Assembly (NCBI RefSeq): GCF_001591045.1
Contig: NZ_BCUA01000001.1
Span: forward strand, 62,001-126,000
Origin: Sphingopyxis granuli NBRC 100800
Lineage (GTDB): Bacteria > Pseudomonadota > Alphaproteobacteria > Sphingomonadales > Sphingomonadaceae
Length of the DNA: 64,000 nucleotides
Reading direction: 5' to 3'
The position numbers and the translations under genes are program-made. The notes below the pieces were generated by a model. It saw only the letters and a program-made list of their open reading frames with translations, searched no databases and had not been told where the DNA came from. Shown here one piece after another: positions 44,869-64,000 of the stretch (within the stretch, counting starts at the first letter, position 1; each line of letters begins with the position of its first letter).

Positions 44869-44870
44869 GA

Positions 44871-45884: not shown

Positions 45885-46131
45885 GAGACACAACCTCCTG
45901 TTGCCGTTCGTCCCCCGGCGATCGGCGGCTTTGAGTGCTGCGGACCCTCTTGGTGCGCTGCGTGGACCAGCTCTTGCTCCCTGCCGATTCGAGCCAGTGT
46001 GGGGCACGCTATCGGGGCCAGTCAGGGGATGACATTAGGGCTTTTACGAATAGGGATGGCTGGGGGTGGAGGAGCTGAACCGGTGTGGCGGCAAATGTCG
46101 CGACATACACGCTGGTCAGGCAAGTCGGAGA

Positions 46132-48516: not shown

Positions 48517-48605
48517 GGCTTTCCTCCAGCTTGGGCATGGCGCCAGGCGAGCTGCCGCCTTGATCGCCTCGTTTTCGGGGCAACCATCGCCGGGCAGGAG
48601 GTGAG

Positions 48606-48625
48606 GGTCATTACGTAAGGGTCCT
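48606..48625. promoter_or_regulatory. TTACGTAA palindrome upstream of ppsA, possible response-regulator site
   Basis: The palindrome TTACGTAA (48611-48618) lies in GGGTCATTACGTAAGGGTCC, about 90 bases upstream of the ppsA start. TACGTA also occurs at 30639 and 31452, both upstream of minus-strand stress-island genes. The FixJ response regulator of rhizobia is reported to prefer TACGTAG-like sites. This is a suggestion from pattern only. Confidence 0.3.
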
Positions 48626-48748
48626 ATGCGTGGGTTGCACAGGAGGGTCCGTTGGTCAGGGCGCCATTGGAGGTCTTCGCGGGTTTTGCCGTCAGTCGGC
48701 CTGCTTCAGGCGATCCCCGTGCGCCGTCCGCAGGATGGTGATCGCAAT

Positions 48749-49432
48749 TCAATCACCGAAGAACTGGGGATTGCGAGCGATGAAGCGTCTTGCCCAGTTG
48801 TCCAGGTAGGAGGATCGGGCGCGACTGAGATAGCGCCAGCCAGCCACGCTGATCGCGAGCGCGCCGATGGCGTTGACGATGAGATCCCACATTGTGTCGG
48901 TGAGGCCAGACGGGTCGCCGAGCATGGGCTTCTGCATGGTCAACCCGAAAACCTGGTCCATCGTGAACTCGAATATCTCCCAGAGAGCGCCGATCGCCTG
49001 GGAGAAGCAGAATGCAAAGACCGCGAGAAATGAAGGCCTCATATGGAGGTCCACATGCCGATCCTCATTGAGGATGTAGACCGTCATGAACCCCTGAAGT
49101 CCCAGCAGTAGCCCTGCCGTTGCATGGAGGATCAGATCCCACCACCAAAAGCGCTCGTAATAGTCGCGCACCTCTCCGAGGAAGAGCGCCGCGAAACCGA
49201 ACAGAATGGCAAGTATCTGTACTTCGGGCGGTATGTGAACGGAAAAGCGGGCTTTCAGCACGATGGGCATCGCCATCGTCAGCATGATCCCGGCCACCAG
49301 GAAGACGTGGATCCATTGCTGCTCGATGGTCAGGAGAATGAGCTCCGCTGCCATCACGGACTGTAGGGCGACGAGGATGACGAGATGAGCGAGCCTGACT
49401 CGCCTTTCTTCATCTCGCTTGTTATCCCGCAT
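48749..49432 (-). CDS. DUF2238-like inner-membrane protein
   Basis: 227 residues from ATG 49432. Five or six hydrophobic segments (LVILVALQSVMAAELILL, VFLVAGIMLTMAMPIVL, ILAILFGFAALFLG, and more). The family-like features are WWWDLILHATAGLLLGLQGF, the ALWEIFEFTMD segment and GLTDTMWDLIVNAIGALAI, with conserved Asp, His and Glu in membrane helices. This is the YjdF/DUF2238 pattern as I remember it; function unknown. It overlaps the end of the upstream Usp gene by 11 bases, so they form an operon. Confidence 0.7.
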   Translation of the reverse strand: MRDNKRDEERRVRLAHLVILVALQSVMAAELILLTIEQQWIHVFLVAGIMLTMAMPIVLKARFSVHIPPEVQILAILFGFAALFLGEVRDYYERFWWWDLILHATAGLLLGLQGFMTVYILNEDRHVDLHMRPSFLAVFAFCFSQAIGALWEIFEFTMDQVFGLTMQKPMLGDPSGLTDTMWDLIVNAIGALAISVAGWRYLSRARSSYLDNWARRFIARNPQFFGD

Positions 49433-50315
49433 CGTCAGGTGCGATTCCCTGGATAATGCGTTGCGCTGGTTCGCTCGCCCGGCTGTCCTGTGGAACAAGC
49501 AGTACGTCGCATTCAAGGCAGCCGACAAGGGCTCGCGCCGTGCTCCCGAGCATCGCTGTCGCTAGCGCCGAGCGTCCATGGGTTCCAATGACCGCGAGAT
49601 CGACAGCGTTCGCCTGCACATGGTCGCGCGCAACCCGGCAGACGTCACCATAGTCCACGCTGACATCGAGGAGTGCTTGCGTCGCAGGAGACAGGGCGGT
49701 CGCGCTCAGGAATGCGTCCAGCTCGTATGCGATATCCGCCTGTTGCGCCGCGGCAGGGCCCTCGCGACCGCGCAACGTCTCGAGCCGAACATGATACGCG
49801 TGCAGGAGCGTGATTGCCGCCGTCGGGAACAGGTCGACCGCGGTTGTAAGCGCAGTTCTTGAGCATTCCGAAAAATCCGTGGCCGCCATCAACTGCCGAT
49901 ACTCTGCTTCCGCGCGTCCCTTGACGATCAGGAGCGGCAAGCCTGCCCGCCGTGCCAAGCGTTCGACCGTGGTTCCAATGAGGAAATCTCCGAGCTCATC
50001 CTTGCGGGAAATGCCCGTGACGATGAGCTCGACCGAGAATTCGGCAGCGACATCGAGAATGGTCGAAGTGACATCGCCGAACGCGACCCTCGTGCAAATC
50101 GCAATATTATCGTCTTGCACTTCGCTCTCGAGCTTCGCCTGGGCCCGATCCATGGCTTCTTCGCGATCCCAAGGTATCGTCGCATCGTTCTCGAGGACGT
50201 GAAGAAGCACTAACCTGGCGCCCCAGGCGCGTGCCAATAGCACCGCCCGGTCGCGGGAGCGATCGCACCGGCCGGTAAAGTCGGTGGGCAGCAGGATAGT
50301 TCGTGGCGTGACCAT
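49422..50315 (-). CDS. Universal stress protein, tandem Usp domains
   Basis: 297 residues. Two complete Usp domains: the first starts ILLPTDFTGRCDRS and carries TGISRKDELGDFLIGTTVE; the second has ATDFSEC and the ATP-binding loop GTHGRSALATAMLGSTA. Cytosolic stress protein. It precedes the DUF2238-like membrane protein with an overlap, and lies divergently from hipBA. The 260-base gap to hipB holds hip operators but may also carry this gene's promoter. Confidence 0.9.
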   Translation of the reverse strand: MVTPRTILLPTDFTGRCDRSRDRAVLLARAWGARLVLLHVLENDATIPWDREEAMDRAQAKLESEVQDDNIAICTRVAFGDVTSTILDVAAEFSVELIVTGISRKDELGDFLIGTTVERLARRAGLPLLIVKGRAEAEYRQLMAATDFSECSRTALTTAVDLFPTAAITLLHAYHVRLETLRGREGPAAAQQADIAYELDAFLSATALSPATQALLDVSVDYGDVCRVARDHVQANAVDLAVIGTHGRSALATAMLGSTARALVGCLECDVLLVPQDSRASEPAQRIIQGIAPDDAG

Positions 50316-50575: not shown

Positions 50576-50809
50576 GTGCTGGACGCAACAACGATCGGGC
50601 AGATCGTCCGGAATGAGCGCAAGGAGCTTGGACTTCGCCAGGATGAGCTGGCAGCCGCTAGCGGAGTTGGACTGCGCTTCGTCGTCGATCTCGAGCGGGG
50701 CAAGGCGACTGCGCAGATCGGCAAGGTCATCACAGTCCTCGCCGCGCTGGGATGTGAGCTGCAGATCCGGCGGCCGGACGGGGTCGTGCTTGTAGGCCGG
50801 CCGGCATGA
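50576..50809 (+). CDS. hipB: HipB-type antitoxin, XRE-family repressor
   Basis: 77 residues with a typical HTH: TTIGQIVRNERKELGLRQDELAAASGVGLRFVVDLERGK. It neutralises HipA and represses its own operon. The start is GTG at 50576, since no ATG exists between the last operator and the HTH; GTGAGGGG precedes it. The stop overlaps the hipA ATG (ATGA). The three palindromes just upstream are its likely binding sites. Confidence 0.92.
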   Translation: MLDATTIGQIVRNERKELGLRQDELAAASGVGLRFVVDLERGKATAQIGKVITVLAALGCELQIRRPDGVVLVGRPA

Positions 50810-52071
50810 CCCCCGATATCGTCGATCGCCTTGTCATCTGGTCGGATCAGCGCATTGCCGGGGAGCTTGCGCTCGATCGCGGCGGTGCGATGCATTTTAC
50901 CTATGCTTCCGAATGGCTGGCGGATCAGATAGCAAAACCGCTCTCGCACGCTCTACCGAAGCAGGCGGAGTCGTTCGGCGACGCGCTATGCAAGGCTGTT
51001 TTTGGGGGACTGTTACCCGAGGAAGGGCAGCGAACCGCCATCGCGCGGGTGCTCGGCGTATCGCCTGACAATCCGTTTCGTCTGTTGGCGGCGCTTGGCG
51101 GTGATGTTGCCGGGGCACTTGCATTTCTCCCGGAAGGCGAGACGCCGCCCGCTGCACCCGCAGGTGAGCCCGCCCATCCGCTGGATGAGGTTGAGCTTGC
51201 GGCCTTGCTTGTTCGCTTGCCTCGTGTGCCGATGCTGGCTGGGGAAGGGGGCGCCCGGCTCAGCCTGGCCGGCGCCCAGGGTAAGTTGCCCGTCGTTCTG
51301 ATCGATCGTGCCATCGCTATCCCCCGCATCGGCGAGCCATCGACCCATCTCATCAAACCAGAGCCTGACCGCTTTCCCGGCCTGGCAGCCAATGAGGCCT
51401 TCTGTCTGGCGCTGGCGCGGGCGGTGGGTCTCGACGCAGCCATGGCGGAATGGCGGGCCATCGCTGGCCAGCCCTATTTGCTCGTGACGCGCTATGATCG
51501 CCTTGAGGCCGATGTCGGCACCACTCGGTTGCATCAGGAAGATTTTGCCCAGGCGCTCGGCGTGCCGTCGAACCGCAAATATGCGAGTGAAGGCGGGCCA
51601 ACTTTTCGCGATGGCTTCGCATTGGTGCGTCGGGCCACCACGCGGCCCGCACGCGAGGTGCTTAAGCTCGCCGATGCGGCGATCTTCAATCTGGTCATCG
51701 GCAATGCCGACGCCCATGCCAAGAATTACAGCCTGCTGCGCCGGGATAATGGCGAGGTGGTGCTGGCACCGCTTTATGATCTCGTGGCGACCCATATGTG
51801 GCCGGAGCTCTCAGCGAAGCTCGCCATGCGGTTCGGCCGTGCGGCGACCCTTGAGGACGTAGGGGCAGAGAGTTTCGAGCGCTTCGCCGAAGATGCGGGC
51901 CTGGCTCTTCCGTTCCTGCGCCGGCGTGCCGCGGCGATGGCCGCGGCTATCCGCGGCGCCATCGCCGATGGGATCGAGGTGCCAGGGCTTGAGGATGCGT
52001 CTCGTCTTGGTGAACTGCCGACGATTGTACGCGACCGTGCGGATCGGTTCGCGCTCAAGACCAAGCCGTGA
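50806..52071 (+). CDS. hipA: HipA-family serine/threonine kinase toxin
   Basis: 421 residues. The P-loop-like SLAGAQGKLPVV, then a HLIKPEPDRFPGL segment, VTRYDR and RLHQEDFAQALG, followed by the catalytic loop GNADAHAKN with D302, and the metal-binding LYDL near 322-325. HipA kinases phosphorylate glutamyl-tRNA synthetase in E. coli and drive dormancy; the target here is unknown. All main catalytic residues are present, so it should be active. It overlaps hipB and is followed by an AT-rich stretch and a strong hairpin before the convergent defence operon. Confidence 0.93.
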   Translation: MTPDIVDRLVIWSDQRIAGELALDRGGAMHFTYASEWLADQIAKPLSHALPKQAESFGDALCKAVFGGLLPEEGQRTAIARVLGVSPDNPFRLLAALGGDVAGALAFLPEGETPPAAPAGEPAHPLDEVELAALLVRLPRVPMLAGEGGARLSLAGAQGKLPVVLIDRAIAIPRIGEPSTHLIKPEPDRFPGLAANEAFCLALARAVGLDAAMAEWRAIAGQPYLLVTRYDRLEADVGTTRLHQEDFAQALGVPSNRKYASEGGPTFRDGFALVRRATTRPAREVLKLADAAIFNLVIGNADAHAKNYSLLRRDNGEVVLAPLYDLVATHMWPELSAKLAMRFGRAATLEDVGAESFERFAEDAGLALPFLRRRAAAMAAAIRGAIADGIEVPGLEDASRLGELPTIVRDRADRFALKTKP

Positions 52072-52155
52072 AGGGCGAAAAATATAAGATATTGATATAC
52101 AAGGATAAAAGATTGATAATATATCTTATGTTAAATTTTAGACGTGCGGCATGGT

Positions 52156-52197: not shown

Positions 52198-55100
52198 TTA
52201 TGCCGTTGAAACAGCTCCGATACTTTTTAACATCTTGCTCAAATACTTCTCGGAGCCATCGTCCATGAAAAGCACATTGCGCGTCTCCAGATCCTCCTTT
52301 GAACCTGCAGTCCCGACGTTCAAGAGGTCGCTGTACTGAGTGTAAGACAGGATGAAGGCATTCAGGATTAGGTCCGGATCGTCTAGTTCCTTCTGACGTT
52401 CCTTGATCTCGGAATAGAGCCCTAGCTTCGGGTCGTTGAGGTCGAGGTTCCGGATGCCTTTCGGATCAACAAAGCTGAGCCACTGCTGGCCCGTCGCATC
52501 ATCGACCAGCCATAGCAGAAAGTCGGGATAGAAATTACCGGCTCTTGCGAAGCCTAGGCCTTTCGCCTGAGTGTCTGCATTGCGCAGCAGATACAGGCTC
52601 CGCCCAGCAAGCAGCTCTTTGGCGACCGATGAATTGTAGAACGCTTCTAGATCGCGAACGAATTGAACCTCGCTGGGGGAATCGAAGGCCAGAGGACGCA
52701 TCTTCAGAGGCAAGTTACCGGTCACGTCAGGTGCCATCAGCGGATAATATAGGTGGCGAGCAAAGCTGATCGCGACCATGTGAGGCGCATTCCACTTGCT
52801 CGCTTCGCCGATCTTGCTAGCGGCAACTAGGTCCTTGAGAACCTTTAGCTTGGCCTCGTATTCCCGACCATCGTCCGTGGCGTCAATCTCGAACTGATAG
52901 AGCTTTAGCATCGAGCCGTGATCGTCGGTGATGTAGGCGACGTCGTAGAACTGCCCCTCGTACCCGGCTTTCAATGCCTGATAGAAGCGATCGGTATATT
53001 CGGTCAGTAGCTGAACGAGAATGTCCTGCTGCTTGTTGACGTCGGCAAAGCCGTTTATGGCCAACTCTGCCTGGGGAATGAACAACGTGTACCAAGCGTC
53101 GCTGCCAGCGCAGAAGTCGATCAGGCGCTGCCGGTCTAGCCGAAGGTTGCTCCAGGCCTTCAATAGCTTGTATTCCTGCAATGCGAGAAACACCGCGTCC
53201 CAGTCGAACATGGCCATGGCGGCGTGATCAATCTTGCCCTTGTAACGCGCATCGGGCGCAACCTTGACGGCAGAATTGTCCTTCGTGCTGAGCGCTTCGA
53301 TCCTCGGATAAAGGTCTAGCGTGGCATGCGGCAGCTTGATCTTGCCGACGAAATCCGCTGGCACTTCATACAGCCAAGGGAAGTGCGTGCGCTTGAAGCC
53401 CTTGATCTGATTGTCCTTGTAGCCGTCCTTCAGCTTGAGCGTCTTGAGGCGCTTGTCAGCCGGCAGGTTGGACCTCGTGGGGAAGTTCAGCTCGATTATC
53501 TCGTCGCTGGGCGTGATGCCCTCTTCCTTTAGGTAATCCTTGAAGGCGGCCATGTAGTTGGCCCGAACGCCGAAGATGTTGAGCGTTTCCAGCCGCTCCA
53601 GATGCACACCTTTGGGCCGTTCGTTCGGAAGCGAGCGTTTGAGTGACATGCCCCTGCCCTTCAGGCGCACGCCGCGCCCGAACAGCTGGATGATCTGCGA
53701 GCCTTCGCCTTGGCCCATGTTGAGCAGGCCCATGGTCGAGACGCGCCAGCTGGACCAGCCTTCGGTGAACTTGCGCGAACCGATCAAGACGTTGAGCTTG
53801 CTGCCCTCCTGATTGATCGTGCCGAACAGGCCGTCGCCGAAGTCGTCGGATTCGGTATCGAAGGCGTCGACATCCTCCGCCGTTTTGAAGAACCCGGCAT
53901 CGTCGCCGATGTTGATGACGCCAAAGTGGGGCGCATTGCCGATGCGCAAGGCTAGTTCGCCCTTGCTGCCCTTGAGATTGACCAGCTTTAGCCGCTGGCG
54001 CGCTTCGGCGTTGAACAGGCGGCGCAGTACGTCGGCATATATCGTTTCGGCATCGCGCTGCATGAGGGGCGAGAATCGCCCGGCAAAAACGTCGTTACCC
54101 TTTGGATCCAGCAATCGCGCCTTGTCTGCGATCAGGTCGGCGATCCATTCGATGGACTGGGCGTCATCGTTCAGGAACGAGGCCAGGAACTCGAGCACCG
54201 ACAGAACATCGCTGTCTTCGCCCGACACGGTATTGCCGACGAATACCCACAGCGGCTTGTCGATGTTGAATTCGGCAATCTGGTCACGGTGCGTGTCCCA
54301 CAGCCAGAGCTGCTGGTAAAAGCTGAGCAGGCAGGCTGTGAAATAAAGCGCACCATGCTTGTCGTACCCGGCATCGTCCAGGTTCAGGATCAGCGACTCC
54401 TTCCCGTAGCCGTCGGCGTAGAAGTACTTGTAGCTGTAATCGATCAGCACGGCCTTGGCGTAAGCCTCGCGAACGCCTTCGATCCGCGCGCGGGCATGGT
54501 CGGCCGAAGTGAGCGCGACCTGCGCCTTCTCGCTCTCGTCGAGCTGCCGATAGGTCCTTGCAAACTGGCGCCGGGCCTTGGCGTTCAGAATGTCCTGCTC
54601 GGCCTTTTCGACCGTTGCGCCCTTGGCGACCGACTGACTGAAGGTGGCGCTGTATTCGAAGGCGAAGCCGCCGCGTACCAGCGCCGCGCGCCGTGCCATC
54701 CAAACGCCACCCGCCGTGCCGGCGCCGCGATGCCCTTCGTCGACTAGGACAAGGTTGTTGCCTTCGAAGGCACCCGTGGCGACGGTCTTGTCACCCATTT
54801 CCTCGGCCAGCTTTGTTACTTCGATGACATCGATCCAACCCTTGTAGAGGCTGTCAGACTGGTTCTTGTCGAACAGGTGGGCGTTGATACCGGAGAGCCG
54901 GAATTCCTCCAGATGCTGGCGCGACAGGCCTTCGTTCGGCGTCAGCAGGATGATCCGGTCGGGCCAGACGTTGCTTCGGCCGTTCTGGAAATAGTGCAGG
55001 TACTGGTGGATGTTGACGTGCAGCAGCAGCGTCTTGCCGCTGCCGGTGGCGTTCCAGAAAGCCAGCTTGTTTAGGTCGTCCGCCGTGTAGTCACGGAAAT

Positions 55101-55539
55101 TCTCGGCGCCCGGCTCCAGCCGGTAGGCCGCCATCTGCTCGTTCAGGCCATCGAGCAATTGCTGGGGCCGGTTAAAATACCAGTCGAGATAGATTTCAGC
55201 AAAAAGCAGCGACAGGTACTGGAAGTACTTCAGCGTCAGGATCACACCATCGGTGGCGTTGCGGCGGTGGGTGATGGCCTGCCAGTGACGCACGATGTTG
55301 AGGTCATAGCGCCGCAGATCCGCCTCGCTGATCCGGTCCATGTTGAACAGGTTGCGGGTCAGCTCGTGGAAGAAGCGGGTCTGGCCGTCGTCGTCGATGC
55401 CTTCGTGCCGGTCTTCGCCCAGCCGTTCTTTAAGCGCGGAAAGCGATCCGCCCTTGAAATGGCTGAGCATCCAGCGGTTGAGCACCAGCTCCTGGTGGAA
55501 CGTGCGCCGGGCACGCGCGGCGCGGGGAGTGCGAGCCAT
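52198..55539 (-). CDS. Type III Res-like DEAD/DEAH helicase with C-terminal PD-(D/E)XK nuclease
   Basis: 1113 residues. Helicase core: Walker A ATGSGKT near 164-170, Walker B VDEGHRG, motif III FEYSATF, then a RecA2 domain with FTEGWSSW and QLFGRGVRL. Near the C-terminus PDFLLWL and, about 15 residues on, FVDPKG give the PD...DxK nuclease active site. It is the restriction arm expected to translocate on DNA and cut. The start is ATG 55539, whose bases overlap the TGA of the ASCH-like gene (ATGA), so the frame start at 55551 is rejected. Last gene of a five-gene operon. Confidence 0.9.
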   Translation of the reverse strand: MARTPRAARARRTFHQELVLNRWMLSHFKGGSLSALKERLGEDRHEGIDDDGQTRFFHELTRNLFNMDRISEADLRRYDLNIVRHWQAITHRRNATDGVILTLKYFQYLSLLFAEIYLDWYFNRPQQLLDGLNEQMAAYRLEPGAENFRDYTADDLNKLAFWNATGSGKTLLLHVNIHQYLHYFQNGRSNVWPDRIILLTPNEGLSRQHLEEFRLSGINAHLFDKNQSDSLYKGWIDVIEVTKLAEEMGDKTVATGAFEGNNLVLVDEGHRGAGTAGGVWMARRAALVRGGFAFEYSATFSQSVAKGATVEKAEQDILNAKARRQFARTYRQLDESEKAQVALTSADHARARIEGVREAYAKAVLIDYSYKYFYADGYGKESLILNLDDAGYDKHGALYFTACLLSFYQQLWLWDTHRDQIAEFNIDKPLWVFVGNTVSGEDSDVLSVLEFLASFLNDDAQSIEWIADLIADKARLLDPKGNDVFAGRFSPLMQRDAETIYADVLRRLFNAEARQRLKLVNLKGSKGELALRIGNAPHFGVINIGDDAGFFKTAEDVDAFDTESDDFGDGLFGTINQEGSKLNVLIGSRKFTEGWSSWRVSTMGLLNMGQGEGSQIIQLFGRGVRLKGRGMSLKRSLPNERPKGVHLERLETLNIFGVRANYMAAFKDYLKEEGITPSDEIIELNFPTRSNLPADKRLKTLKLKDGYKDNQIKGFKRTHFPWLYEVPADFVGKIKLPHATLDLYPRIEALSTKDNSAVKVAPDARYKGKIDHAAMAMFDWDAVFLALQEYKLLKAWSNLRLDRQRLIDFCAGSDAWYTLFIPQAELAINGFADVNKQQDILVQLLTEYTDRFYQALKAGYEGQFYDVAYITDDHGSMLKLYQFEIDATDDGREYEAKLKVLKDLVAASKIGEASKWNAPHMVAISFARHLYYPLMAPDVTGNLPLKMRPLAFDSPSEVQFVRDLEAFYNSSVAKELLAGRSLYLLRNADTQAKGLGFARAGNFYPDFLLWLVDDATGQQWLSFVDPKGIRNLDLNDPKLGLYSEIKERQKELDDPDLILNAFILSYTQYSDLLNVGTAGSKEDLETRNVLFMDDGSEKYLSKMLKSIGAVSTA

Positions 55540-56000
55540 CAGAAACCACACGCCTTATCGATAATCGGCAGTGCCTCCCTTGAAACGAAAGAGAAGCTCT
55601 GTGGCGCGAAGTATTCAAGCATCTCGGTCAGCTCGGATATCTTCGCGGCCTTAGGAGCAATTTCGATACTTTCGAATTTGAAGAGGCCAATTGTGGGAGC
55701 ATTGCCTACATAAGACAGGATGTCGCTCTTAGTCATTTCGAGATATTGGTGGTGCTCCGCAGCAAAAGTGGCAGAAACTCTCCCAATGGTACCGACTCTG
55801 CCCCGAGCGATTATCGCACTAACAGGGGCATTCACGTGGAAATAGACAAATTCAGGCTTCGTCACCAATGGCACACGCTTTCTGATAACCCACGTTGTCG
55901 CGCCACGTTTGATCGGATCAGCCCATTTCGCTCCGAACGACAAAATAACGGCATTAGACCTGTCGTCGGGATTGGCTGGTCGAACCGGGATCTGGTCCAT
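55539..56000 (-). CDS. ASCH/PUA-like small protein between methyltransferase and Res
   Basis: 153 residues from ATG 56000. The N-terminal pattern (AVILSFGAKWADPIKRGATTWVIRKR, then a VYFHVNAPVSAIIARGRVG strand set) is that of ASCH/PUA-like beta-barrels, which bind RNA or modified bases. The C-terminal half is helical (SKIS/ELTEMLEYF-like). ATG 56000 is one base from the stop of the methyltransferase gene; the stop overlaps the Res start. Such coupling argues it is an obligate component, perhaps a sensor of modified DNA. The domain call rests on pattern memory only. Confidence 0.6.
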   Translation of the reverse strand: MDQIPVRPANPDDRSNAVILSFGAKWADPIKRGATTWVIRKRVPLVTKPEFVYFHVNAPVSAIIARGRVGTIGRVSATFAAEHHQYLEMTKSDILSYVGNAPTIGLFKFESIEIAPKAAKISELTEMLEYFAPQSFSFVSREALPIIDKACGF

Positions 56001-56001
56001 A

Positions 56002-59000
56002 TCAGGCCCCCTCTGCATTAGAGAACATGGCCTCCAGAAAAGCCGGTTCAATCTGGCGTAGCTTCAAGGCCTTAGTGACCTCCCCTTCAGCCTCGCTGGC
56101 GGTCAGCACCGATGGGATGTTGTGGTCGCCGTTGAGGTAGACAATCTCGTATTCACTGTCCGCCGGGTTGATCGCCAGCTTGTCGCACAAGCGGGTCAGG
56201 CCTTCGTAATCGAGCACTTCGCAATCGCGCCACAGGATCAGCGTCTTCTCGCCAGTCGGCAATGTCCCCTCGACCGTCACAAAGCCCTGCTTGTGCTGAA
56301 TGTCGATGTGCCGAACGGTGAGGCCGATCAGGTAGTTGAAGGTCTCGACCAAATCGACCTTGCGCGGTTCATAGGCGCCCGCGCTGTCGACCGCGATGTT
56401 GAGCGTATAGTCGAACGGCTTGCGGAAATCCTCTACTGACAGCAGCGACCCGCGCGCTTCTACATTGAGCATGTAGCGCATCAGATAATCGTCGCGCGCC
56501 TGGTCGCTCATGGCATCGAGCAATGCACCCTGCCGGTCGTCGCGCCGTAGGTTCAGGTTGTTCAGCGTGTCCTCGTAGCTCTCGACCCTAAGGACCTTGA
56601 AGGTGTGGCTAACGCCGGTCTGGGGAGTCGTCGGATGCCCGTTATCCCATTCTTTCGAATAGACAGTCTTTTGAACACGAGGCTTCAGAACAGGGTCGAA
56701 GTACTCTCCTTGCTCAACAATTATATATTTGCGCCGACCACCATCTGACCGATTGAGTTCTATAATCGCGTGAGCTGTCGTGCCGGATCCTCCAAAATAA
56801 TCCAGAGCAATTGCGTCCGACTTATTGCATCCGGAAATATAAATTGCGTCACGAACAGCATGAATAGATTTTGGATAAGAAAATACAGAGGTTCCAAATA
56901 GATCTTTAATTAGAGCGGTTCCATGCTCTGTTGCGGAGTACTTTGCATCATTCCAAGTCGAAACTGATACAACGCCGAGCTCGTGCGGTCGACGCTTCAA
57001 ATAAGGATACAAGCGTCCAGATCGATCAGCGCGGACTTGGATTTGGTTGCCGGCTGCGCGGACTGTCTCAGACTCCCACCGCCACCTCTTTTCGTGACCG
57101 TCATCGTTCGTCGGCCACGCCACCTGCTCATCGTCGTTGGGTTGTTCTAGAATGGTCCACTCGTTGCGATCCGCGTTCCATTCCATTTGAGGTACGCGAT
57201 AAGAATCGGACGTGAGATATATGGGGTAATACATGCGTGGGCGATCTCGACGGTTTGAGTCCGATCCCTCACGCCGCAAGTTTCGCCATTCGAATGGACC
57301 ATCCGCATCAATTTGATTGAAGCGAGCCGTTTGGTCTGGCGTCGGTGGCAGTCGGCCAATCGTTGCCTGATCTGAAGCGCCAGCGGCGATCAAGTACTCA
57401 TGAGAGATCGAGTAACCTGTTTGAGTTGGTCGGCCAGATGGATTTGCCCGAATGGAGAAGGTGCCAAGCAGGTTACCGGCAAAGACATCCTGGCAAATAA
57501 AGGAAAGCTCTCGGAATTGCACATCATCGATAGCGGCCATGAGGACGCCGTCACTGCGCATAAGCGGCGCACCTGCGGCTAGGCGACTTTGCAACAAGCA
57601 CGCCCATGAAGAGGACTTGTAGCCATTCTTGTAGTTAATGGCCGACGCGTCGGTGTTGTAAGGCGGGTCAATGTAAGTGGCTTTGACGCATCCCCTGTAT
57701 CGCTCGGTCAACAGCGTCAGTGCCTGGAAATTATCCCCATGTACCAATAGCCCGTCGGTGCTGGCATCCAAATCAGGAATGGCTTTCAGTAGATCGGCCC
57801 GGAACGCTGACTCGAACAATGCTGTGTCCACCATCAGATAAGGCGATGCCTTGAGGTCACTTATGCTGCCAGCCTCCGCGCTGTCGCGCATTCCCAGGTC
57901 ATGCCACTGCGCCCATTGCGCCGGGTTTGCGGCAATTGCCGGATAAAGGTCCTCTGGCGTCCGGTCGAGCGTGACGCAGTAGTGCGCCGACACGACGAAC
58001 TTCTTTTTCAGCCACAGCTTTTTTTGGAAATCCTCGATGCTGGCGAGGAACGTGATCAGGTGCAGTGCGATCGCGCGCAGGCACTGGATCATGCGCAGGT
58101 TCTTCTCGATCGCGCCGAACGCCGCTGCGTTTTGCACATCGTCGAGCTTCATGACCTCGTTCTTGATGTAGAAGTCCAGCTCCCGCCGCAGGAATCCGCC
58201 GAGATCCTTGTGAATGAAATAGTCGGCGGTGTTCTTCTGGGTGTAGTTGGTGAGGCACTTATCCAGAATGGTGCGCTGCGGGTTGCTTTCCGTCGGCGCA
58301 CGCTCGGTCAGGCCCAGCCACTTTGCCTTGACTGTTTCGTCCGCCAGCACGGAGGCAACCGCCTGGCTGACCAGTGCGTCCTGTTTCGTGCCCTTTGGCA
58401 TGGCCTTGTAATCGAAGCGGATCACCAGCGTGCCGTCTTCCTCGCTGACGGGGACGATGGTCTCGTCGTATTCCTCGCCGTCCTCGTCGATCCGGGTGAC
58501 GGTGCGGGATTCGGCCAGGACGAACCGGCGCTCCTTGTCATTGTCCTTGCGATTGTCCTTCGCGGTGTCGGCCGCGACGAGCCTGAATTGCACCGACCGC
58601 CCGTCTTCGAGCTTGAAGCCGTAGTTGCTGAACGCTTCGCCGGACTTGGTGTAATACTGATCCTTGTTGGCCCAGTGCAGCACCACCTCTTCCCCGGAAT
58701 AGGGGATGGCATAGGTATCGCCCTTGTACCGGCGCTGGCTGATGAAATCGCCCTTGTCGTAGTAGCGCGAGAAGAAGGTCAGCAGGTGGGAAAACACCTG
58801 ATTTTCATGTTCTGACGCACCGGTGATGGCGGCAGCGATGGCCTCGCGGAGCTTCTGCACGGCAGGCACGGTGTCCGGATTGACGCCGTCGGCTTCATAT
58901 TGAGCAATCTTGTCGGTCAGCTCCTTCGCCAGCGAGTCGGTGTTGGCGGCGGCACCTGAGGTAAACGCCTCTGCCACTTGCTCCTTGAGCCGGGTGGTCA

Positions 59001-59121
59001 GATAGGCATCGATCTCGCCGGCGCGGGCGTTGAGGATGCGATAGACGCCGAAATCCAGCTCGGGCCGGTCAATCTGGAAAATCTCACGTAGTTTGGTGAC
59101 CAGCGCGTCGAAATTGTTCAT
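56002..59121 (-). CDS. Type III Mod-like adenine-specific DNA methyltransferase (large, beta class)
   Basis: 1039 residues. The catalytic motif YIDPPYNT (DPPY at 485-488) precedes the S-adenosylmethionine motif YFGGSGTT (776-780), which is the beta-class order of N6-adenine methyltransferases. About 290 residues between them hold the target-recognition region. A long N-terminal domain (1-480) with coiled-coil-like helices (SLAKELTDKIAQYEADG) is larger than in classical type III Mod proteins of about 600-700 residues. It lies downstream of the SNF2 helicase with a 41-base gap and upstream of the ASCH gene. It is expected to methylate host DNA and give the system self/non-self discrimination. 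Confidence 0.9.
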   Translation of the reverse strand: MNNFDALVTKLREIFQIDRPELDFGVYRILNARAGEIDAYLTTRLKEQVAEAFTSGAAANTDSLAKELTDKIAQYEADGVNPDTVPAVQKLREAIAAAITGASEHENQVFSHLLTFFSRYYDKGDFISQRRYKGDTYAIPYSGEEVVLHWANKDQYYTKSGEAFSNYGFKLEDGRSVQFRLVAADTAKDNRKDNDKERRFVLAESRTVTRIDEDGEEYDETIVPVSEEDGTLVIRFDYKAMPKGTKQDALVSQAVASVLADETVKAKWLGLTERAPTESNPQRTILDKCLTNYTQKNTADYFIHKDLGGFLRRELDFYIKNEVMKLDDVQNAAAFGAIEKNLRMIQCLRAIALHLITFLASIEDFQKKLWLKKKFVVSAHYCVTLDRTPEDLYPAIAANPAQWAQWHDLGMRDSAEAGSISDLKASPYLMVDTALFESAFRADLLKAIPDLDASTDGLLVHGDNFQALTLLTERYRGCVKATYIDPPYNTDASAINYKNGYKSSSWACLLQSRLAAGAPLMRSDGVLMAAIDDVQFRELSFICQDVFAGNLLGTFSIRANPSGRPTQTGYSISHEYLIAAGASDQATIGRLPPTPDQTARFNQIDADGPFEWRNLRREGSDSNRRDRPRMYYPIYLTSDSYRVPQMEWNADRNEWTILEQPNDDEQVAWPTNDDGHEKRWRWESETVRAAGNQIQVRADRSGRLYPYLKRRPHELGVVSVSTWNDAKYSATEHGTALIKDLFGTSVFSYPKSIHAVRDAIYISGCNKSDAIALDYFGGSGTTAHAIIELNRSDGGRRKYIIVEQGEYFDPVLKPRVQKTVYSKEWDNGHPTTPQTGVSHTFKVLRVESYEDTLNNLNLRRDDRQGALLDAMSDQARDDYLMRYMLNVEARGSLLSVEDFRKPFDYTLNIAVDSAGAYEPRKVDLVETFNYLIGLTVRHIDIQHKQGFVTVEGTLPTGEKTLILWRDCEVLDYEGLTRLCDKLAINPADSEYEIVYLNGDHNIPSVLTASEAEGEVTKALKLRQIEPAFLEAMFSNAEGA

Positions 59122-59162
59122 TCTTTTGGTACTTCCCGGATTCTCTCAATGCATCCGCAGTC

Positions 59163-62036
59163 CTATACGACGGACCAGCGGATCGTGAACAAGGTTTCAC
59201 TGGCTTGCGCACGCTGCATGCGTTTCTGTAGCCCGGCAATCAGCTCATCGCGTTTCTCGGCAATCTCGTCTTCCTGGACGAAGATATCCTGTCGCTGCTT
59301 GCGCTGGCGGCGCTCCAGCTCCTGGATCCGTGACTGGAAGCCGTGCTCCTCCTCGAGGGTGGTCGCCTGACGGGCCTCTCGGCGGAGCATTTTGATCTGC
59401 TCCTTGGTGTCCTTCAACGCCTTTTCCGCCGCGAAGATCTTGTCCTCCGCCCAGTGCTCCAGCCGATCGCGGGCGACTGCAAAATGCTTGTTGTTGGCCT
59501 CCAGCGAGCGATTGAGCGTGGCGCGAACGTGCTGATCGGCTTCGGCATTCAGCCGAGCGGACAAGTCTGGCGGCAGGATGGAACATTCGTGAACCGTCGC
59601 GGCGACGCCGAACAGTTTTGTGCAGGCCTCCTGGTCGATGGATCGCCCGGCATCGTCGATAGCGGAGAACAGCAGATATTCTTCAGTTTCGAACGCGGAC
59701 ACCGTCAGGCGCCGCAGGGTTAGCCAGCCGCTCCGTCCCTTCAGCGCTTCGACAACCGCGACCCGTCCCGGATGCGAGGAAATTTCAAAGCGCAACTCGG
59801 CTATGGGTGTTTCGGCTGCTTTGGCCTGCTCTATCACGCATTCGCCCAGCGGGTGCGAGAGACGGTAGAGGAAATAACCATGCTCGGCCGCGGGGCGGTG
59901 ACCGGCGGCATTCCGGGATATCAGATGGTACCGGCCCTTGGGAATGTCCGCGGCGGGAGGTGACGTCAGTTCGAACGTCAGCGCCTCTTCATCAAAGCTG
60001 GCGCGGTCCTGCAGCACAAATTCGGTCAGGTTCCAGAAGGCGCGGCCTACCCGATCAAGCTGCTGGCGCGCATTTTCCAGCCGAAGTCGCAGCCTTGCGT
60101 GAACGTCCTCGTCGAAGTGCTCCAGCAGGGCCTTGCGGGTATCTTCCATGCGGGCGTTGATCTGTTCGTCGAGCTCGGCCTGCAGGGCATCGAACGCCGC
60201 AACGATTTCGTCTGGTGTACGGCAGTCCTGGTAGATCGCCAGGATCCGCTTCTCGAAATCAACGCCAGATTCGATCGAGCCAAGCACGTCGTCGGATGCA
60301 CCGAAGACACCGTCGAACAGGTTGAACTTCTCGGTCAGCAGGGCGTGAACCCGCTGATCGGCATCGTTACGTTCGTTCAGGAAATTGATGACGATGACAT
60401 CGTGGGTCTGTCCGTAGCGGTGGCAGCGGCCGATGCGCTGCTCGATCCGCTGCGGGTTCCAGGGCAAATCGTAATTGATGACCTGTGAGCAGAACTGCAG
60501 GTTCACACCTTCGGCCGCAGCCTCGGTGGCGATCATGATCGAGGCATGGTCTCGGAATTCGTCGATCAGGGCGCTGCGAAGGTCGATAGCGCGAGATCCC
60601 GTGACCCGGCCACTGTTGGCATTGGCCTTGACCCACTGGTCATAAATTTCGGCTGTGCGCGGACCGTTGTTGGTGCCGCTGAATGTGACGACCTGCCCGG
60701 CATATCCATGGGATTCGAGGAAAGCGTAGAGGTAATCCTGGGTGCGGCGGGATTCCGTGAAGATCAGAGCCTTGCGGGCGGCTCCCATCCGGCCCTGTTC
60801 GGCAAAACCGATGTCGAGTGCGGTAAGCAGGGCCTTGGACTTTGTGTCGGTGCCGATCGAGCGTGCCATTGCTGCCAGCGCGGCAATCTCGTCAATTTCG
60901 GAACGAAGCCGAGCTGGCTCGATGACGGTGGGTGACTGGTCGGCTTCATCTTCATCGGCAAGCCATTCGTCGAGCAATTCCTCCTCGATCTCCTCGGCTG
61001 TGATGATTTCATCAGTCCAGTTGTCATCTGGCTCGGCACCGTCGCGAAGATCGACCAGCCGCTGTTGCAACGTGGCCAGCGTGCCCGCGATGGCGTGGGA
61101 AGACGATGCCAGTAACTTGCGCAGGATCAGGACGGTCAGATGCCGCTGCCGCGTCGGGATCGCGTAGCTGTCCTCACGCTGCAGAAATTTGGAAATGGCG
61201 TCGTAAAGCGCCTGCTCGGCGTCCGTCGGGCAGAACGGCTGCGTGACGGCCCGGCGCTGGGTGTAGCGGACGTATTCCAAAACCTGCTTGCGCAGGGTGC
61301 GCTTGCAGAATGTCGCCAGCCGTTGGCGCAGACCAGGGATGTCGCCGCCAGCGTTTACGTATTTGGCGCGGAAGGCATTCGGGTCACCGAAAATGTTCTC
61401 GTCAATGAACGATGTCAGCCCGTAGAGTTCCATCAGGCTGTTTTGAAGCGGCGTGGCCGTGAGTAGGAGCTTTTTGCGGCCTTCAGTCCCCCAGCGCAGA
61501 GCCTGGCCAATACGATTGCTCGGGCGGTAGGCGTTGCGGAGCTTGTGGGCCTCGTCGATAACAACGAGGTCCCAGGCGATGTGACGAAGCTCGTCCTGCA
61601 GCTTGGCCGCGTAATGGTACGACAGGATGACCACGGCCTTTTGCTCCAGCGGCAAAGCGTGGCCTTCGCGTCGAAGTGATCGGTGCGTTTTGGCATCAAT
61701 AACGACTGCCGGAAGGTTAAATTTCTCCGTCAGCTCGTTGGCCCATTGCTGCCGGATTGATGCTGGGCAAATGATTAGAAGTCGTCTTTTGCGCTCTGCC
61801 CATTTTTGGCAAAGTACGATCCCCGCTTCGATCGTCTTTCCTAGGCCGACTTCATCGGCAAGAATGGCCCCTTCTGAGATTGGTGATTGTAAAGCAAACA
61901 TCGCTGCTTCGATCTGATGGGGATTAAGATCGACCGATGCATCGAATAGGGACATCGAGAGTTGGTCGGCATCGCCCGGGGGCGCCTGCCTTGTAAGATC
62001 GTAAGCGATGTATTTGCTGTGGTATGCGGTTGACAT
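59163..62036 (-). CDS. RapA/HepA-like SNF2 helicase with C-terminal coiled coil
   Basis: 957 residues. SNF2 motifs: Q-like NPHQIEA, motif I DEVGLGKT (61-68), motif II DEAH (161-164), TATPLQN, and a second RecA domain with ALIFTESRRT, ATEAAAEGVNLQ and the IGRCHRYGQ motif VI. The C-terminus, from about 830, is a long charged coiled coil (KALKDTKEQIKMLRREARQ). It resembles helicases of DISARM- and BREX-associated defence loci rather than the RNA-polymerase recycling factor. ATG 62036 is 95 bases from the stop of the upstream ATPase. No PLD nuclease domain was seen. Confidence 0.92.
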   Translation of the reverse strand: MSTAYHSKYIAYDLTRQAPPGDADQLSMSLFDASVDLNPHQIEAAMFALQSPISEGAILADEVGLGKTIEAGIVLCQKWAERKRRLLIICPASIRQQWANELTEKFNLPAVVIDAKTHRSLRREGHALPLEQKAVVILSYHYAAKLQDELRHIAWDLVVIDEAHKLRNAYRPSNRIGQALRWGTEGRKKLLLTATPLQNSLMELYGLTSFIDENIFGDPNAFRAKYVNAGGDIPGLRQRLATFCKRTLRKQVLEYVRYTQRRAVTQPFCPTDAEQALYDAISKFLQREDSYAIPTRQRHLTVLILRKLLASSSHAIAGTLATLQQRLVDLRDGAEPDDNWTDEIITAEEIEEELLDEWLADEDEADQSPTVIEPARLRSEIDEIAALAAMARSIGTDTKSKALLTALDIGFAEQGRMGAARKALIFTESRRTQDYLYAFLESHGYAGQVVTFSGTNNGPRTAEIYDQWVKANANSGRVTGSRAIDLRSALIDEFRDHASIMIATEAAAEGVNLQFCSQVINYDLPWNPQRIEQRIGRCHRYGQTHDVIVINFLNERNDADQRVHALLTEKFNLFDGVFGASDDVLGSIESGVDFEKRILAIYQDCRTPDEIVAAFDALQAELDEQINARMEDTRKALLEHFDEDVHARLRLRLENARQQLDRVGRAFWNLTEFVLQDRASFDEEALTFELTSPPAADIPKGRYHLISRNAAGHRPAAEHGYFLYRLSHPLGECVIEQAKAAETPIAELRFEISSHPGRVAVVEALKGRSGWLTLRRLTVSAFETEEYLLFSAIDDAGRSIDQEACTKLFGVAATVHECSILPPDLSARLNAEADQHVRATLNRSLEANNKHFAVARDRLEHWAEDKIFAAEKALKDTKEQIKMLRREARQATTLEEEHGFQSRIQELERRQRKQRQDIFVQEDEIAEKRDELIAGLQKRMQRAQASETLFTIRWSVV

Positions 62037-62131
62037 GTGATTCGTGTAGGCAATCGATCGTGCGCCTGTCGAGTGTGGAGGTCGTGCAGCTTTGAAGGGG
62101 GCCGGCGATTGCCCTGAGAGCGCCGCGGCGT

Positions 62132-64000
62132 TCAGAGTTGCACGCGGTTTGCGGACAAATGCCGGAACGCCCGGTCCCGGCAGGTGAGCAGGATCACCTG
62201 CATGCGTTGGGAGGCTTCCTCCAGGATTTCCGTCATAAGATCGAGCCGCCCATCGTCGGAATAGACCAGCGGATCGTCGAGGATCAGCGAGACCGGCAGG
62301 CCCTGCTCCAGCAGCATGTCGGCAAAGGCGAGGCGGGTCAGGACCGCCAGCTGCTCCTGCGTCCCCTTTGAGAGCGTTCCGCAGGCTTCGCTCAGACCGG
62401 ATCGCGTGACCGAGGCCAGGCCGAGCTCTTCATCGAAGCTGAGGTCGGCACCGGGAAACAGGCGCTCGACATGCACGCGAGCGCGCTGGGCCACTGGGCC
62501 GACAAAGGTCCGAGATGCCTCCCCGCGCGCCTCGTCCAGCACATCCTTGAGCAGTTTGATCGTGGCCGCCTCTTCGTCGAGCCGCGCCAGCGCCTGTGTT
62601 GCGGCATCGGCTTCTTCGGCTGCGGCTGCGGCCAGGCTCGCCAGGCCCTTGCCGCCCTCGCTCTCAATGATCGCCTCAAGGCGGGCGATATCCTTTTCGA
62701 GGTCGCTCCGCCGGATTTGCCCGGCCCTTGCCCGGCTATCGATCGTTTCGATCTTGCGGTTGATCGCCTGCACATCATGCGCGGTGGCGTCGCGCGTTGC
62801 TTCGGCCAGCTTGACAGCGGCCTGGGCAGCATCCTCCCGGGCTTTGGCGATGGCGTCGGCGAGCCCGGCAAAATCGGGCTTCCGTTCGATCTGAGTGATG
62901 CGATCCGACGCATGGCTCTGATCGCGCTCCGCGCCCGCCTGCTCAGCGGCAAGCGGGCGGTCCCTATCCTCTATTTCTCGCAGATCCTGAACGGCTTGGT
63001 CATACAGGGTTTCAGCGCGCACCGCGGCAGTTTCCGCCTCTTCCACGCTGCGGGTAAGCAGATCGATCGAGATCTCGTCTTCATCGGATGCCGGCGATTC
63101 CGTTGGAACACCGGCCACGAACAGCTTGAGCGCATCAGGGCCTGCCGCAAGATCCAACAGCGGCTGTGCCGGCGTGAGGGCGGTAATCTTGGTTTCGAGC
63201 AGTTGGACGGTCCCCTGCGCATCGCGGGCCGTATCGTTTCGCGTCCGCGCCGCGACAAGATCGACGACGTTCCACTCGGCCAGCTCTAGAGCTTGCCGCT
63301 CGAGCAATTCGGCCAGACTGGCTTCCGCACTGGCTGCCGTTGCCGGTGGGCGGATGACGAGGATGCCCCCGCCCAAGGCAATCTGCGTCTCACCGGTCAA
63401 GGTGCGCGGGCTATTTGGTGTCAGGGGCTCGCCGCCTATGGTGATGCCCGTAGCGTCGCCCGTAAGCTCGATAGTGGTAGCGCCGGCATTGACGGCTGCC
63501 CGCGCCTCCGCGATCGCACGGTCATTGGCATCTAGTCGAGCGAGCGTCTCAGCCGGAATGACCTGTGCGGCCTGATTGCGGGCATCCGCCAGCTGCTTTT
63601 CGAGATCGAGGAGTTTGGTGTGCCGCTGGCGTGCATCGGTGATGGCCGCGTGGCGCTGACGCTTAGCGAGACGTTCCTCCCCTTCGCTAAGCGCCTGGCG
63701 GGCTGCGGCGCGATCATCGCGCGCCTTGTCGAGTGCCGCCTTCGCCTCAGCCACCTTCGTGCGTCCCGCTTTCAGCTGACTAGCAAGCTGCTCGCGATCG
63801 GCGGTGATTGCGGTCAAAGATTCGCCAGCGACCCTCAGCGCTTCCCTCGCGGCCTCGTGCTGAGCCTGCAGATCCTCGATGCGATCGAGGTTGGCAGAGA
63901 CATTCTCATGTTCGGCCTTACGGGTCTCCAGGATCTGCGCGGCGGCCTTGGCGACATCTAGAGCCTGAACAAGACCGGCGCGCTGTTCTTGCTCGGTCTC
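62132..64000 (-). CDS. YhaN/SbcC-like coiled-coil ATPase (5' end outside window)
   Basis: The frame stays open to the right edge, so the start and Walker A lie outside; about 622 residues are visible. They are mostly long Glu/Ala/Arg-rich coiled coil, then a C-terminal ATPase half with the ABC signature-like LSKGTQEQLAVL and Walker B SLILDDPLVYSDDGR, then VILLTCR. This pattern is that of YhaN (AAA_27) proteins, relatives of SbcC/Rad50 that often pair with an SbcD-like phosphoesterase (YhaO). That partner would be upstream of this gene, beyond the window. It leads a five-gene co-directional set with a helicase, a methyltransferase, an ASCH protein and a Res-like nuclease. Confidence 0.8.
   Translation of the reverse strand, partial: ETEQEQRAGLVQALDVAKAAAQILETRKAEHENVSANLDRIEDLQAQHEAAREALRVAGESLTAITADREQLASQLKAGRTKVAEAKAALDKARDDRAAARQALSEGEERLAKRQRHAAITDARQRHTKLLDLEKQLADARNQAAQVIPAETLARLDANDRAIAEARAAVNAGATTIELTGDATGITIGGEPLTPNSPRTLTGETQIALGGGILVIRPPATAASAEASLAELLERQALELAEWNVVDLVAARTRNDTARDAQGTVQLLETKITALTPAQPLLDLAAGPDALKLFVAGVPTESPASDEDEISIDLLTRSVEEAETAAVRAETLYDQAVQDLREIEDRDRPLAAEQAGAERDQSHASDRITQIERKPDFAGLADAIAKAREDAAQAAVKLAEATRDATAHDVQAINRKIETIDSRARAGQIRRSDLEKDIARLEAIIESEGGKGLASLAAAAAEEADAATQALARLDEEAATIKLLKDVLDEARGEASRTFVGPVAQRARVHVERLFPGADLSFDEELGLASVTRSGLSEACGTLSKGTQEQLAVLTRLAFADMLLEQGLPVSLILDDPLVYSDDGRLDLMTEILEEASQRMQVILLTCRDRAFRHLSANRVQL

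Follow-up and report, generated by a model that had tools for sequence, protein, structure and literature searches.

We analyzed a 64,000-nucleotide stretch of Sphingopyxis granuli NBRC 100800 (hereafter the window; C1:62001-126000, on contig NZ_BCUA01000001.1 of an assembly totaling 4.26 Mb and 181 contigs), which ends in five genes encoding a type III restriction subunit (Res), an ASCH-like protein, a type III methyltransferase (Mod), a SNF2-family helicase, and an SbcC-like ATPase. The initial annotation had interpreted these genes as a single five-gene defense operon. The open reading frame (ORF) list of the window confirmed all five on the minus strand, and beyond the window edge the minus-strand run goes on with SbcD-like and RecB-like genes, followed by a divergent gene for a WYL regulator. 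Coordinates in that region are those of an extended sequence, L003, where position + 60000 gives the window count. The features of the locus are the following:

52198..55539, minus strand: Res, type III restriction subunit with helicase and C-terminal PD-(D/E)XK-like motif (start ATG 55539; ORF from GTG 55551)
55539..56000, minus strand: ASCH-like protein of 153 aa, encoded as cargo in the Mod-Res gap (ORF bounds 55539-56051; likeliest start ATG 56000)
56002..59121, minus strand: Mod, type III N6-adenine-type methyltransferase with a long N-terminal region, 1039 aa
59163..62036, minus strand: SNF2-family helicase, DrmD-like, 957 aa
62037..62131, minus strand: SbcC-to-cargo junction of 95 bases, where the conserved front module ends and the exchangeable slot begins
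62132..64000 (cut by the window edge), minus strand: SbcC/Rad50/YhaN-like ATPase, 876 aa, without a CxxC hook
L003:2132-4762 (= window 62132-64762), minus strand: the complete SbcC-like gene
L003:4759-5868, minus strand: SbcD-like phosphoesterase, 369 aa, 4-base overlap with SbcC
L003:5872-9171, minus strand: RecB-like nuclease-helicase, 1099 aa, with RNase H-like and superfamily 1 helicase domains
L003:9172-9276: gap between the WYL and RecB genes, containing the palindrome region
L003:9277-10260, plus strand: WYL regulator, divergent
50806..52071, plus strand: HipA kinase (Pfam HipA_C, 162 bits), far edge of the insert and a flanking marker outside the system

The genes are tightly packed. 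The intergenic gaps are 95 bases between SbcC and SNF2, 41 between SNF2 and Mod, and 1 between Mod and the ASCH-like gene, as had been described from the sequence (gaps of 1 to 95 bases), while the reported ATGA overlap of the ASCH and Res genes proved to be a TGATG junction with a 1-base overlap. The SbcD/YhaO-like gene that the initial annotation had suggested looking for upstream is present, overlapping SbcC by 4 bases. All motifs sought in Res, Mod, SNF2, SbcC, and SbcD were found, together with 3 of 4 in the RecB-like protein.

Profile searches agreed with the domains first proposed for SNF2, Mod, Res, and the SbcC/YhaN-like ATPase. Res matched the PADLOC REase_III model (1520 bits) and Pfam ResIII (33.9 bits), and contains the motifs TGSGKT, DEGH, GRGVR, YPDF, and DPKG, the K of the DPK motif being replaced by H in 1 of 3 aligned relatives; its profile matched nothing among solved structures. 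Mod scored 1122 bits with PADLOC MTase_III and 56 bits with Pfam N6_N4_Mtase, displays DPPY and FGGSG motifs, and its profile matches the Mod subunit of EcoP15I (126 bits) and Mbo45V (175 bits). The SNF2 protein is closest to PADLOC DrmD (685 bits) and matches Pfam SNF2-rel_dom (126 bits).

To define which of these genes are conserved together, we compared the surroundings of their relatives. Strong SNF2 relatives occur in 13 of 296 genomes of the order (own included), at 14 places, and type III Mod- and Res-like genes lie nearby on the same strand at 12 of these (window included; two shorter Res families were each typed on one member), the remaining 2 having a short SNF2 gene with neither Mod nor Res. 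Three other genomes have SNF2, Mod, and Res side by side, with identities to the window of 75, 76, and 49% for SNF2, 66, 61, and 44% for Mod, and 70, 68, and 38% for Res. A survey of Mod in a one-genome-per-species collection, from which the best 80 of at least 515 relatives were kept, gave Res in 75 and SNF2 in 59 loci, always on the Mod strand, with SNF2 placed before Mod in 56 and after Res in 3. Many of these contigs are cut; 52 of the 80 have at least 6 kb before and at least 7 kb after Mod, and there Res was present in 52/52 and SNF2 in 40/52, with 12 lacking SNF2 within the stretch. By label, the best 80 Mod loci belong to Pseudomonadota, Chlorobi, Bacteroidota, Planctomycetes, Spirochaetes, Nitrospirales, Kiritimatiellae, Akkermansia, and Firmicutes. 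SbcC, SbcD, RecB, and ASCH-like genes were found in none of these 80 loci, and an SbcC-like ATPase lay beside SNF2 in none of the 13 other SNF2 matches, so that the five genes do not form one system as first proposed. These results show that SNF2-Mod-Res is a widespread unit conserved without the front module, and the window carries a type III version of it in which the SNF2 helicase is a conserved member.

Two observations were made alongside this survey. Among 50 plasmid records with an SNF2 match (2 neighborhoods inspected), Klebsiella pneumoniae plasmid p19-10_01 (L172) shows SNF2-Mod-Res on conjugative enterobacterial plasmids, with an SNF2 protein 53.7% identical and a small helix-turn-helix (HTH) gene ahead. 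A locus labeled Exiguobacterium profundum (L097, a metagenome-assembled genome) gives triad scores near those of Tabrizicola (L096), and its label may be wrong.

The gaps within this unit (L093-L166) often carry one or two extra genes, either between Mod and Res or between SNF2 and Mod. Ten representatives were typed, yielding a YhcG nuclease (DUF1016), an AAA_21 ATPase followed by a DUF4276 gene, RhuM, two AAA_15 ATPases, Fic, Abi_2, and GmrSD, and one that matched nothing. Type I restriction operons contain similar accessory genes. In the window, the ASCH-like gene takes the position that other cargo occupies in the Mod-Res gap elsewhere. Its label derives indirectly from a relative: the window protein had no direct Pfam match even at E 5 and scored 22.9 bits with PADLOC PDC-M11B, and it is 29% identical over 139 aa to an HTH-ASCH protein of a Methylobacterium plasmid that passes Pfam ASCH (28.5 > 21.2 bits), matches PDC-M11B, and adjoins PDC-M11A. 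The canonical ASCH motif is GxKxxExR; the GEKTVELR of the Methylobacterium protein corresponds to GATTWVIR in the window protein, in which the motif is thus degenerate, suggesting that a binding role is likelier than a catalytic one. This is also the weakest of the five genes, since a codon-usage caller kept only a 65-aa piece of the ORF, and its coding status therefore rests on tight packing and one homologue. No relatives were found in viral contigs, phages, or 336 other genomes of the class, and one was found among plasmids; a structure prediction made without alignment had a mean pLDDT (predicted confidence score) of 30 and was not used.

The front module has a separate distribution. The window ATPase represents the SbcC-like member of an SbcD-SbcC pair extending past the window, with a metallophosphoesterase and a Rad50-like ATPase in tandem and their motifs intact. 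In Pfam, the ATPase gave AAA_23 over the cut-off and SMC_N just below it; all 11 solved sequences it matched are Rad50, the zinc-hook CxxC sought in it was absent, and PADLOC gave weak LmuB and mad3 scores (among the matches listed, 25 of 40 families). Plasmid homologues of the RecB-like protein are annotated as TM0106-family RecB-like nuclease, and the regulator has Pfam WYL and WCX over cut-off, with HTH_23 and HTH_11 below theirs. Within the order, 7 of 296 genomes have an SbcC relative (E up to 1e-15), and within the family 17 of 397 do (E up to 1e-100), own included in both. SbcD adjoins SbcC in all 21 further genome loci, of which 2 have both RecB and WYL nearby and 1 has WYL alone (about 8 kb scanned on each side, less at one contig end).

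RecB relatives were found in 24 of 296 genomes of the order (own included). A divergent WYL gene adjoins RecB in 7 of 14 genome loci, and a McrC-like family, typed on one member, lies near in 7. From 41 plasmid records with a RecB match, 16 were inspected (8 of the 10 records in the 95-99% band). Among 8 records with a more distant RecB, divergent WYL was annotated in 7 and McrBC-like genes lay behind RecB in 3; two further such plasmids have a Dnd-like gene set and a DUF499-DUF1156 pair nearby, respectively, and one (Paracoccus) has no restriction gene behind RecB. The Dnd-like set is that of Mesorhizobium plasmid pOM4 (L189), which carries a divergent WYL-RecB pair and an SbcD-SbcC-like pair beside genes for PAPS reductase, cysteine desulfurase, and DUF4007 that have a Dnd-type look.

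The clearest view of how the front module and the restriction genes are combined came from plasmids. A search of 72,556 records gave 102 with an SbcC match, and 10 neighborhoods were inspected, with the cargo typed on representatives; 8 plasmids carry SbcC at about 92% protein identity. On 7 of these 8, a single 8.2-kb alignment to the window locus spans the divergent WYL gene and RecB-SbcD-SbcC, with a DNA identity of 92.6-93.7%, and in pDC01, where an IS1380 element lies inside the WYL gene, the front match falls into two pieces (95% and 93%). The match between window and plasmids starts 65 bases past the WYL stop and ends within -27 to +14 bases of the SbcC stop. Plasmids of unlike cargo are 93.8-98.6% identical to one another in the piece reaching SbcC, which ends -24 to +6 bases from the same stop codon. 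The SbcC stop is therefore a sharp exchange border. Behind it, in the same direction, the 8 plasmids carry four cargo types:

pMSHV, pDC01, pSF1, CAP-1 p1: Mod, BPTD_3080 Res, and DUF3320
pISP0, pRSMS1: YprA-family helicase, DpdE/DrmD-like helicase, N6-methyltransferase, and HNH
pTomMM15c: bacteriophage exclusion (BREX) system, with BrxC 1764, PglX 1467, and PglZ 359 bits (PglZ on a partial piece)
pNIN3: WYL, DUF4391, methyltransferase, and Res, broken by insertion sequences

In CAP-1 p1 the Mod gene is shortened, with IS21-type elements behind it, and the DUF3320 region of pDC01 is divided by an IS1380 element. Plasmids pISP0 and pRSMS1 are 99.985% identical over 26.6 kb and were counted as one lineage for this reason. 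The window is the ninth example and the fifth cargo type, SNF2-Mod-(ASCH-like)-Res. In the window and all 8 plasmids the cargo is co-directional and starts 95-228 bases after SbcC, and none of 6 SbcC-cargo gaps (window and 5 plasmids) contains a run of five T, sought as a terminator. Type IV secretion system (T4SS) genes adjoin the front module on the 8 plasmids. Reading onward past the far side of the slot in four plasmids revealed HipA/HTH or DUF6088 genes, three of these plasmids having an annotated relaxase, MobC, and ParB. A related arrangement was seen on KK22 p1 (Sphingobium fuliginis, L199; 12093-14783), where the WYL gene overlaps a shortened DUF3320 gene with no RecB, SbcDC, Mod, or Res annotated between them, apparently by deletion.

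These plasmids also bear on a consequence drawn in the initial annotation, namely that an ATPase not conserved next to the helicase-Mod-Res genes would make the five genes a chance neighborhood and the last two an ordinary type III system. The ATPase is indeed not conserved there (0/80, 0/13), and the consequence does not follow, because SNF2 is itself kept together with Mod-Res, and the ATPase is part of a conserved front module that precedes several restriction systems.

A further conserved feature lies in the WYL-RecB gap. An inverted-repeat search with arms of at least 6 bases missed a 5-base palindrome that was found by eye and then scored against shuffled sequences. A TGWCA-N5-TGWCA site lies 10-24 nucleotides from the WYL start in 21 of 23 WYL-RecB regions, which were picked and delimited by hand (pDC01, KK22 p1, and an Aminobacter record were left out). 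The motif was defined on part of the same sequences on which it was scored, with 16 regions matching at 10/10 positions and 5 at 9/10, and the score was reached by 0-11 of 300 shuffles for the 21; for the two remaining regions, the corresponding counts at their best sites were 1 and 34 of 300. The palindrome is perfect in 15 of the 21, comprising 12 TGTCA-N5-TGACA and 3 with the arms exchanged (TGACA-N5-TGTCA), and CZR27, outside the 21, has a near-palindrome at the usual place. Exact TGTCA-N5-TGACA occurs 12 times in 565 kb of these loci, and 10 of the occurrences are the sites described above; the window contains none. The regulator BrxR binds to a repeat of 11 bases with a spacer of 5 bases (PMC9122601). 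The palindrome is a putative operator of the WYL regulator.

The replicon of the window indicates that the modules move. Over window positions 1-25000, which contain F-type conjugation genes, 93% matches the Sphingopyxis plasmid pDB-2 at 87% identity; given this match and the transfer genes, the window most likely belongs to a conjugative plasmid of a sphingomonad. Agreement with pDB-2 extends up to 50820, covers 51948-52136 (the HipA tail), and resumes from the equivalent of window 74271, so that about 22 kb, from about 60 bases past the Res end (52198) to beyond the WYL gene, is absent in pDB-2. The site in pDB-2 is not perfectly empty, since most of HipA is missing and about 1.7 kb of its own DNA carries a VapC-type pair. 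On the WYL side, the shared block starts within the final bases of the gene before it, whose product ends in FLAELN in either context. The presence of the same block on a different replicon and its absence from pDB-2 indicate that the modules travel.

Around the block, a stress and metabolism cluster (window 36442-50315 and L003:14598-20000) is common to pDB-2 as far as compared and is interrupted by the defense block; by pDB-2 annotation it comprises a 2808-aa glucoamylase-family protein, phosphoenolpyruvate synthase, universal stress proteins, 1-phosphofructokinase, a metallo-β-lactamase (MBL) hydrolase, and a Ca/Na antiporter. A RES-Xre/MbcA toxin-antitoxin pair (L003:10962-11821) adjoins the WYL side of the block, and a SulP-type permease gene (L003:12537-14240) lies on the same side within the block absent from pDB-2.

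The locus has a modular architecture of separately conserved parts, with intact motifs and a conserved palindrome, and we consider it probable that interchangeable modules make up the whole: a front module for DNA-end processing, controlled by the WYL regulator, and behind it an exchangeable restriction slot. In a mechanism of phage defense consistent with this arrangement, Mod would methylate host sites, marking self, and SNF2 and Res would scan and cut unmethylated invader DNA, after which the SbcCD-like pair and the RecB-like nuclease-helicase would degrade the cut or blocked ends. A WYL dimer could hold the front genes low, and perhaps the slot too by read-through if front and cargo are co-transcribed, limiting cost until repression is relieved by infection, entry, or damage. 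The strongest argument for a functional coupling of front and cargo is the presence of a modification-based restriction system behind SbcC in 9 of 9 copies, co-directional and close, 3 of them broken or interrupted.

Several observations weigh against this interpretation, the strongest against coupling being that every module also occurs without the others. WYL and RecB are both absent from the roughly 8 kb scanned on each side of SbcD-SbcC in 18 of 21 genome loci, and neither lies beside SbcD-SbcC in two less similar plasmid records, indicating that this pair also lives alone. Two cargoes, those of pTomMM15c (BREX) and pNIN3 (type III-like), open with their own regulator gene, so the WYL promoter is not a requirement for a system in the slot, and on 3 of the 8 plasmids the cargo region is broken by insertion sequences, showing that cargo does not always stay intact. 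The 8 plasmids are built on one backbone (replicon cluster 647 in 7, and cluster 545 in pMSHV), the window being the sole copy seen on another, and the association of front and cargo may for this reason reflect one history; nine copies amount to fewer than nine independent events, with about five cargo arrivals. As for the palindrome, 6 of the 21 sites are imperfect, with one mismatched pair each, region G216 has no such site near the WYL start, and nearly the same sequence recurs in 9 of the 23 regions.

These points are shared in part by an alternative that we regard as rather unlikely, in which front module and restriction system are independent units at a shared recombination hotspot, the SbcC stop marking a conserved backbone edge with no coupling. 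The lack of front genes in all 80 best Mod loci (59 of which carry SNF2), the 18 SbcD-SbcC loci without WYL or RecB, the Paracoccus WYL-RecB pair with no restriction cargo behind it, and the separate regulators of the pTomMM15c and pNIN3 cargoes are all expected from it, while restriction-type cargo in all nine copies, co-directional within 95-228 bases of SbcC and with no T-run in six gaps, argues for a closer connection, as do WYL-RecB relatives beside McrBC, Dnd-like, and DUF499 genes. SbcCD and RecB-like families are repair enzymes, and this, together with the T4SS genes beside the front module on the 8 plasmids, would fit a service to the plasmid itself, such as end repair or establishment in a new host, with the restriction genes as stability cargo. 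We find this improbable given that WYL-RecB relatives lie beside McrBC on unrelated replicons and that WYL regulators are known as repressors of defense islands (PMC9122601). A single dedicated machine of five to eight fixed genes, as a subtype of Hma (helicase-methylase-ATPase), DISARM, or BREX, could be suggested by the seven tightly packed, co-directional genes and the DrmD-like SNF2 protein; the separate conservation of the modules already contradicts it, the gene set being found in 0/80 best Mod, 0/13 SNF2, and 0/21 SbcC genome loci and 0/8 plasmids, and we give it very little credence.

If the modular reading with its exchangeable slot is followed further, the divergent WYL gene with RecB-SbcD-SbcC might be a general-purpose effector front end usable by any restriction system inserted behind SbcC, a proposal that we advance tentatively and with clearly less confidence than the modular reading itself. 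If true, the recognition and methylation part would be swapped (type III, BREX, ARMADA-like, and probably more) while the regulator and end degradation stay constant, the reverse of the usual picture with an exchanged effector. This would matter for the disposal of attacked DNA by restriction and BREX systems, on which sources differ for the BREX nuclease: according to the abstract of PMC9122589, no BREX system appears to contain a nuclease, while PMC12839542 assigns nuclease activity to PglZ. A mobile module with its own regulator and end-processing nucleases, carrying a natural set of cargoes on one backbone, makes the question of DNA disposal directly testable. The occurrence of SNF2-Mod-Res across several phyla further suggests that a third core gene and accessory slots belong to many type III systems regarded as "ordinary"; in the PADLOC models applied here, SNF2, Mod, and Res are scored as separate families.

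Compared to known systems, the cargo of the window resembles type III restriction-modification (EcoP15I, Mbo45V), sharing the DPPY and FGGSG motifs and profile match of Mod and, in Res, the helicase with C-terminal nuclease-like motifs. It differs from these in the approximately 330-360 additional residues before the matched part of Mod, in the SNF2 gene present in 59 of the best 80 loci, and in the cargo genes between SNF2, Mod, and Res. The helicase resembles that of DISARM class I, being closest to DrmD, whereas DISARM membership was rejected: the protein scored 688 bits with NCBIfam DISARM_DrmD_b (cut-off 950) and 277 bits with a second DrmD equivalog (cut-off 610), and drmA, drmB, drmC, and drmMI were the best match of no operon protein. 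The side-by-side helicase, methylase, and ATPase recall Hma and the DUF499-centered, BREX-related systems, and the initial annotation had seen in the locus a possible Hma variant or subtype. Hma consists of a DUF499 ATPase, an N6-methyltransferase, and a helicase (PMC12839542); here, the helicase scored 172.7 bits with HmaA compared to 684.7 bits with DrmD, the ATPase has no DUF499 in Pfam, and among the matches listed neither HmaB for Mod (20 families) nor HmaC for the ATPase (25 of 40) appeared, which argues against that assignment.

The pISP0/pRSMS1 cargo resembles ARMADA type I (PMC12458937) in the order of YprA-family helicase (281 bits with DruE in pISP0), SNF2-type helicase, and N6-methyltransferase; the window was not assigned to ARMADA, DruE/DrmA being the best match of no operon protein and its cargo being Mod-Res. 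The front module pairs phosphoesterase and ATPase genes with intact motifs like SbcCD/Mre11-Rad50 and YhaO-YhaN, and unlike SbcCD it has an 876-aa ATPase without the CxxC hook, placed ahead of a restriction system in the window and the 8 plasmids. It shares with the WYL/BrxR-controlled islands (PMC9122601, PMC9122589) a WYL gene by defense genes and an inverted repeat with a 5-base spacer near the regulator, and differs in the constant RecB-SbcD-SbcC between regulator and exchangeable system and in arms of 5 compared to 11 bases (PMC9122601). This combination was not found described in the open-licence literature searched, which does not establish its absence from print. Together, these comparisons indicate that the locus is a modular variant of known defense architecture rather than an Hma subtype.

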